From assembly GCA_013044165.1 (NCBI GenBank), contig JABEVB010000251.1:1-34159 (forward strand): 34,159 nucleotides of DNA. The letters are read 5' to 3'. How positions within the stretch are numbered: the stretch's first letter is position 1; each line of letters begins with the position of its first letter. Under the pieces are notes generated by a model. The model had not been told where the DNA came from, did no database searches, and saw only the letters and a program-made list of their open reading frames with translations. The translations under genes and the position numbers were made by a program. This DNA is from Phycisphaerales bacterium (GTDB taxonomy: Bacteria; Planctomycetota; Phycisphaerae; WQYP01). Below, in pieces: positions 21,527-34,159 of this stretch.

Positions 21527-22019
21527 TTGCGGGATTGACCGATAAGCCGAATTCTGTACCGCTTGGCGGCGGCGGCCATTTATCTGGGAGCGGCATTGCT
21601 GCCGCCCTCGAGCGACCTACCCGGAGCCTTAAGTCCGCCCGTTGACTGATGCCGCGAGCGGCACTTCGCTACTAAGGTAGACAAACCTTCAGCACGCCGT
21701 GTGCAACCATTGACGGGGACTCACACGGTGGCGGTCGAAGGATGCGTCGGGTCAACGCGTCGGCTCCCTATTTGGTCTTGCACCCGGTGGGGTTTGCCTT
21801 GCCGATTCTGTCGCCAGAACCGCGGTGCGCTCTTACCGCACCATTGCACCCTTACCTGCCGCCAGAGGCGACATAGGCGGTATGTTTTCTGTGGCACTTT
21901 CCCGCGCCGCCGACTTTAACTCGACGGCGGGTGGGCGTTACCCACCACCGTACCCTGTGGAGTTCGGACTTTCCTCCCGGCTTTCGCCGAGCGGCCGCCT
22001 GGTCACTCCTGCACCCTCT
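21527..22019 (-). ncRNA. rnpB: RNase P RNA, bacterial class A
   Basis: This is the catalytic RNA of RNase P, which removes 5' leaders from tRNA precursors. On the minus strand it shows the universally conserved GAGGAAAGTCCGAACTCCAC (complement of 21957-21976), GGCAAACCCCACCGGGTGCA followed by AGACCAAATAGGGAGCC, GGCTCCGGGTAGGTCGC, and the 3' ACAGAATTCGGCTTATC (21541-21557). P1 pairs GGAGTGACC near 22010 with GGTCAATCC near 21537, eight of nine bases. At about 490 nucleotides it is longer than the usual 350-400; about 131 bases lie between the P11 flanks (21631-21761) where E. coli has about 25-40. All overlapping open frames are artefacts. Ends are estimated. Confidence 0.95.
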
Positions 22020-33291: not shown

Positions 33292-33484
33292 CCATCGCGG
33301 CCGTCGGCAAAGGCAAGCCTCGGGCATCCCTGCGGCTGCTGGCGCCGCATCAAATTCAATGTTGAAGCTTTGAAACACGTCGGTCTTGGAAAGCGTTTAC
33401 TCTGATGCGACCAACACGCAAAGGAAATTAGGTCTCCGCGTGGGAGTTAAGACTAGCGCAAAGACATAACGATGAGGGCCAGAT

Positions 33485-33557
33485 GGGCGGTGAGGGACTC
33501 GAACCCCCGACATCCGCGGTGTAAACACGGCGCTCTAACCAACTGAGCTAACCGCCC
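33485..33557 (-). tRNA. tRNA-Val, anticodon TAC
   Basis: On the minus strand the 73 bases fold as a tRNA: acceptor GGGCGGT pairs with ACCGCCC, D arm GCTC...GAGC, anticodon stem CCGTG with CGCGG around loop TTTACAC, and T arm GGGGG-TTCGAGT-CCCTC. The anticodon TAC decodes GTA and GTG. No CCA is encoded. There is room for an independent promoter upstream. Confidence 0.97.
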
Positions 33558-33715: not shown

Positions 33716-33760
33716 CAATAAAAAAATAGGCCGCCAACTGTCGCATCACAGTGGGCGGCC
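33716..33760 (-). terminator. Strong intrinsic terminator upstream of tRNA-Val
   Basis: Stem GGCCGCCCACTGT with ACAGTTGGCGGCC (33748-33760 and 33729-33741; one mismatch, six-base loop), then TATTTTTTTATTG on the minus strand. No minus-strand protein gene reads into it within the window, which points to the small RNA candidate as its transcript. Confidence 0.8.
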
Positions 33761-33817
33761 CAGGTTATGGGAGGAATCTTATGGTCTCTTTCTGCCACTA
33801 TCATCGGCAGAACCTTC
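33718..33817 (-). ncRNA. Candidate small regulatory RNA with exposed CCUCCC and intrinsic terminator
   Basis: Reading the minus strand: a promoter-like TTGCAA (33847-33852), 17-base spacer, TAAAGT (33824-33829), then about seven bases to a start near 33817. Next comes a perfect seven-base hairpin (33806-33812 with 33790-33796), an unpaired stretch with TCCTCCC (33769-33775), and a strong terminator (33748-33760 with 33729-33741, twelve of thirteen pairs) ending in T7 (33720-33726). That is the standard layout of a trans-acting bacterial small RNA, about 100 nucleotides. The CCUCCC can pair with Shine-Dalgarno sites. An alternative is a plus-strand reading frame (33781-34032) with GGGAGGA as its ribosome site. 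Confidence 0.5.
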
Positions 33818-34024
33818 AATACAACTTTACTTTTTTTTCAACTCCATTGCAAGCGGTTTGCAAACCAACACCAAATCCTTTGCCAGCACACCCTAAAACG
33901 TGCCATCTTAGCGTTGGGCAGGCCCACAAAAATCGGCTAAAATATGCCGAAGGCCTCATCAGAACAACGCCCGGTAGGCCAGATTGTTGCACGGCGGCAA
34001 CAAAATTTATATTTTGGAGCGGAA

Positions 34025-34159
34025 ATGACTAATACTTCGCATATGCGAACCATTTTGCCACCCGCTACCGTCTACCTCGTTGGAGCCGGGCCGGGCGATG
34101 CCGGGCTGGCCACCACAGCGGCCGTTGAGGCATTAAAAACAGCCGCCTGTGTCATATAC
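34025..34159 (+). CDS. cobA: Uroporphyrinogen-III C-methyltransferase, N-terminal part
   Basis: The gene runs off the right end; only 45 residues are visible. VYLVGAGPGDAGLATTAAVE is the glycine-rich SAM-binding start of the tetrapyrrole methylase family, and the spacing to CVIY fits SUMT, the step that makes precorrin-2 for siroheme and cobalamin. Other methylases (CobI, CobM) share this fold. ATG 34025 has GGAG five bases upstream. A full-length HemD fusion cannot be excluded. Confidence 0.85.
   Translation, partial: MTNTSHMRTILPPATVYLVGAGPGDAGLATTAAVEALKTAACVIY

Follow-up and report, generated by a model that had tools for sequence, protein, structure and literature searches.

A predicted intergenic small RNA gene with an invariant CCUCCC-centred seed in one family of Phycisphaerae

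Which kind of gene, if any, occupies the minus strand between the tRNA-Val and cobA-hemD genes of a planctomycete from an acid mine drainage? The question arises from a stretch of 34,159 nucleotides (hereafter the window) near whose end a first-pass annotation proposed a small RNA, made up of a promoter, a hairpin, an unpaired CCUCCC stretch and an intrinsic terminator, that would block ribosome binding. The source is MAG 19 from the Cabin Branch acid mine drainage, where the pool has a pH of 2.97 (Planctomycetota; Phycisphaerae; order UBA1161) (PMC8357290). The genome carrying the window comprises 3,578,576 bases in 255 contigs.

The predicted sRNA gene covers about 99 nt of the minus strand (33720..33818), its 3′ end being set by the T-tract and its 5′ end, near 33818, being uncertain. 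Read on that strand, the order of elements is a 7-bp hairpin, a linker, the stretch UUCCUCCCAUAACC, a 14-pair stem-loop and a T7 tract. The 5′ hairpin, UUCUGCC-GAUGAUAGU-GGCAGAA (33790..33812), comes from folding prediction, while the single-stranded seed UUCCUCCCAUAACC (33763..33776) is defined by two alignments of relatives, A1 and A2. The terminator proposed earlier is confirmed on this strand as a stem-loop (33728..33761) in which 33761-33748 pairs with 33741-33728 around a loop at 33747-33742, with one C.U mismatch among the 14 pairs in the window genome, followed by seven T (33726-33720). The folding energy of the segment, -37.0 kcal/mol, is better than that of 200/200 dinucleotide shuffles, whose mean is -24.0 (z -3.9). 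The layout first described thus holds for the hairpin, the unpaired stretch, the stem and the T7 tract, but the CCUCCC does not lie in a hairpin loop: UUCCUCCC is present once in the element, in the linker between both hairpins.

Upstream, the candidate promoter (33824..33852, minus strand) consists of TTGCAA (33852-33847), a 17-base spacer and TAAAGT (33829-33824). The hexamers and the spacing exist as previously noted, but a match at 8/12 consensus positions is no better than chance, since shuffles of the same stretch did equally well in 87/200 cases; nor is the pair among the matches listed by a promoter scan of the window. Both hexamers are identical in the sole other genome of the genus, and the similarity between the two genomes falls off just upstream of them. 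Upstream of the seed, conservation is also seen in an (A/T)TTCAA box and in a CGAU that does not vary (A2 columns 22-32 and 50-53; window 33829-33803), two blocks that may represent promoter, operator or RNA motifs. The CGAU lies inside the 5′ hairpin and is invariant in A2, though the helix itself is devoid of covariation.

Conservation in relatives is concentrated in the seed. Its first 12 bases, UUCCUCCCAUAA, unpaired and including the CCUCCC, are identical in 19/19 copies of the first alignment, and mean identity reaches 0.99 in the seed versus 0.56 in the neighbouring linker. The two stems, for which compensatory changes had been sought, behave differently. In the terminator stem two-sided changes affect 9/14 pairs, 97% of positions being paired (99% in the second alignment), and its covariation score was reached by 0/500 shuffles. 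The 5′ stem shows none: in the window register it is 63% paired, the other register that was tried has no two-sided change, and no covarying helix across genera emerged, so that a covarying 5′ hairpin was discarded as unsupported by the relatives' alignment. The stem also informs on the strand. Read on the minus strand it contains 15 G-U pairs versus a single A-C mismatch, and a T-tract follows it on that strand only; this polarity, together with the minus-only T-tract, places the RNA on the minus strand.

When 60 relatives were searched at the DNA level, most of those in the same family proved to hold the element, and a covariance model built on its 59-base core leaves a gap between true copies, at 69-85 bits, and all other matches, at 36 bits or less. 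Strong copies occur in 18/28 genomes of the GTDB family, distributed over five of its 11 genera (here g1, g2, g3, g5 and g11), and the model found no strong copy in genera g4 and g6-g10, nor any element in the other families among 397 sampled genomes of the class or in the phylum sample. The matches outside the family, at 36 bits or less, are terminators lacking the seed and were rejected. In 84,980 species genomes an exact-pattern scan matched 18 stretches, every one of them in a Planctomycetota MAG and none outside the GTDB family. A search with a 13-base seed agrees in 17 genomes; the 18th, G022, carries CTCCTCCCATAAC, one base off the pattern. As far as these searches reach, the sRNA family is restricted to one family of Phycisphaerae, planctomycetes of acid mine drainage, and has almost certainly long been kept there.

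The genomic context is variable. In the window, a separate tRNA-Val(UAC) gene lies downstream (33484..33557, minus strand), and the 5′ part of a cobA-hemD fusion (uroporphyrinogen-III C-methyltransferase / synthase) diverges from the element as an open frame on the plus strand (33944..34159) that runs off the window; the ATG at about 34026 is the more probable start of the gene, and an orthologue (L112) matches PF00590 and PF02602. With a divergent gene on one side and a tRNA gene on the other, no protein gene would use the terminator, as had been stated. In g3, g5 and g11 the sRNA gene is typically flanked by cobA-hemD, which is divergent, and by a convergent hydrolase of the metallo-beta-lactamase fold, which we take to be of the UPF0173 type; some g5 genomes show just one of these neighbours beside it. 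In g1, cobA-hemD is the sole remaining one of both neighbours, with tRNA-Val downstream; in g2 only the hydrolase is found. Judged by gene order, the sRNA gene is not tied to either neighbour and survives the loss of each.

Several loci deserve mention in their own right. The g2 genomes have two copies in tandem, which have diverged but share the seed (L102:3289 and 3671; L113:7360 and 7748; L111:3013 and 3414); the first copy is preceded, at a distance of about 120 bases, by a -10-like TACTATAAA/TAATATAAA and has an additional, large 5′ hairpin. G018 has two sRNA loci (G018:C105 and G018:C25; L100, L108), and a separate cobA-hemD and hydrolase copy accompanies each of them; either the bin is mixed or the region is duplicated. 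A natural empty site exists in g6, where a cobA-type gene directly adjoins the UPF0173-type hydrolase with no sRNA between them (G006:C105 near 2969, L122). In a hydrolase tree g6 and g8, both lacking the sRNA, are placed among carriers, which suggests loss of the sRNA, the root of the tree being uncertain. A putative second sibling sRNA in g11 (L060, with TTCCTCCCAACC before a terminator) was set aside because a reading frame ends ahead of it, and its match in G016 is an unrelated locus.

Could the element be something other than an independent RNA gene? It might be the 3′ end of a short protein gene, or a leader or antisense part of cobA-hemD, and indeed a 34-codon frame on the minus strand covers it in the window genome, while cobA-hemD is its divergent neighbour in four genera. 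This reading is nevertheless very improbable: the minus-strand frame is interrupted by stops in relatives of g2, g3, g5 and g11; the plus-strand frame at 33781-34032 meets stops in most relatives and lacks its ATG outside the genus; g2 holds the element twice, about 390 bases apart, with no cobA-hemD nearby; and on the plus strand no T-tract follows the stem, whose G-U polarity is that of the minus strand. The codon-like conservation of the plus frame that would have spoken against an RNA is hence not seen, and the description of the region as non-coding stands on both strands. That the parts came together by chance, or that they form a mobile repeat, has a negligible probability; the promoter, taken by itself, is chance-like, but a genome holds one or two copies of the element, whose position is conserved and whose stem covaries, and no copy was found in plasmids or viral contigs. 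Taken together, conservation across genera, covariation, strand polarity, independence from neighbours and broken coding frames back the small RNA originally claimed, and the minus strand from 33818 to 33720 is very probably the gene of an intergenic sRNA of roughly 100 nt. By sequence it belongs to the generic kind of intergenic trans-encoded sRNA genes, being free-standing, non-coding, provided with its own terminator and conserved as RNA.

To which of the known systems is it related? No match reached the Rfam 15 gathering score over the element, either in the window or in the loci of nine relatives, and no report of it was found in open-licence papers. The nearest sub-threshold sRNA match, suhB / mmgR (RF00519), is a weak likeness over the C-rich stretch and terminator whose 17.2 bits (E 0.47) fall far short of the gathering score, 41 bits; the element is not a member. 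In Firmicutes, C-rich sRNAs of the UCCC type such as RsaE/RoxS pair through unpaired C-rich stretches with Shine-Dalgarno (SD) regions, largely without Hfq; their architecture and clade are different, and the sRNA described here has no Rfam match. The Hfq- or ProQ-dependent class does not suit the hosts, since each protein was detected in 0/28 family genomes by searches with positive controls, these MAGs being incomplete and 17 of them at least 90% complete. There is also a resemblance to the rhizobial alpha-r14 RNAs or 'cuckoo RNA', among them NfeR1, a 123-nt Hfq-independent molecule in which CCUCCUCCC remains unpaired while the stems diverge and which is reported to act on the ribosome-binding site of ntrB (PMC10746234). 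An ultraconserved unpaired CCUCC-type anti-SD sequence, diverging stems and a similar length are common to both (PMC10746234, PMC3927594), as is the setting, alpha-r14 / NfeR1 being Hfq-independent and the present genomes having no detected Hfq. However, alpha-r14 RNAs have three (or four) hairpins with CCUCCUCCC in every loop, whereas here a single UUCCUCCCAUAA is found in the linker before the terminator; given one linker seed instead of three loop motifs, the sRNA is not an alpha-r14 RNA, and it comes from a different phylum and has no match in Rfam. It does have the unpaired, conserved CCUCC-type seed that characterizes anti-SD sRNAs, and the most fitting place for it is a new family within a known kind, the intergenic trans-acting sRNAs, the leading hypothesis being that it acts as an anti-SD.

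The anti-SD of the 16S rRNA has CCUCC as its core (PMC6288834). The CCUCCC-centred seed would pair in trans with G-rich ribosome-binding sites on a restricted number of mRNAs and compete with the 16S anti-SD, thereby repressing translation, and would do so without Hfq or ProQ; the action would probably be like that of the rhizobial anti-SD sRNAs, to go by analogy. We assign a probability of about 0.5 to such anti-SD repression, through seed-mRNA pairing free of both chaperones, as the main action of the sRNA, an estimate drawn from sequence features.

The target side was searched within the genomes themselves. GGAGG occurs near 13/306 crudely called starts in 424 kb of the window genome (the window plus L220-L259), that is, 12% of its approximately 3.6 Mb, and SD use there looks weak from these sequences. 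Since strong GGAGG is rare at starts, the seed would pick a small set of strong-SD genes and not all genes. The expectation that several genes of the window have GGAGG or GGGAGGA sites did not hold, these motifs being found at 2/26 and 0/26 predicted starts respectively; one GGGAGGA site falls inside the RNase P RNA. The latter (21527-22010, minus strand) holds GGGAGGAAAGUCC at 21971-21978, an 8-base perfect complement of the seed, which is probably a chance match, this portion of the molecule being universal. MAG 19 has a single copy of the extended complement UAUGGGAGGA, that of the sRNA gene; across all 18 carriers, sRNA copies excluded, 32 sites were counted versus 44 for a reversed control, those fetched being almost all away from gene starts. 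As a long perfect target the 13-base complement was rejected, its two non-sRNA sites, both in G025, being the interior of a 607-codon frame and a short palindrome. Duplex energies below -12 kcal/mol, compared as counts under thresholds, were hardly better at starts (13) than inside genes (10). The best single candidate target in the 424 kb is a gene for a secreted-type protein with GCGGAGGAAUUUUUAUG (L239), whose leader GGAGGAAUUUUUAUG would form about 11 pairs with the sRNA. The invariant unpaired CCUCCC makes the anti-SD action first proposed plausible, but no enrichment of its complements was found at the crudely called gene starts.

Two other readings of a real sRNA were weighed. In one of them, UUCCUCCCAUAA would bind an RNA-binding protein, for instance of the KH-domain or cold-shock type, and the molecule would serve as a protein sponge or scaffold. 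The contiguous 12-base invariant block is compatible with this, for it extends past CCUCCC into an invariant CAUAA that SD pairing does not explain and that leaves room for a protein partner, as is the lack of enrichment at starts; against it, no candidate protein was identified and CCUCC fits the best-known type of RNA seed, so that we regard a protein-binding role as rather unlikely. In the other, the sRNA would pair mainly outside SD regions, with a few mRNAs or another RNA, through interrupted or G-U-rich duplexes. An invariant seed in a genome where GGAGG is so seldom found at starts would be understandable in these terms, and besides the sRNA gene the genome offers 51 further ATGGGAGG and 28 further GGGAGGAA sites; yet such sites are close to control frequency (52 vs 46 and 29 vs 19, the gene itself included), none stands out and no other GGGAGGAA site lies at a convincing gene start, which leaves partners of this sort a doubtful option. 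Anti-SD repression in trans is retained as the preferred reading.

Going further, the sRNA could be a clade-specific global regulator that reads SD strength in bacteria with few strong SD sites, in which the 12-base seed would amount to a 16S anti-SD in mobile form, silencing the few SD-led genes of acid-living planctomycetes without Hfq or ProQ; this view is speculative, and its probability is low. Very few sRNA families have been recorded for the planctomycete group, and a survey listed eight for the whole PVC group (PMC9029176). In the family described here, conservation extends across genera, seed and terminator are defined and the locus is conserved, while neither Hfq nor ProQ was detected in the genomes. 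In such genomes, it would make testable how an sRNA finds its mRNAs without a chaperone, and which role an anti-SD seed may play where the use of SD sequences is weak.
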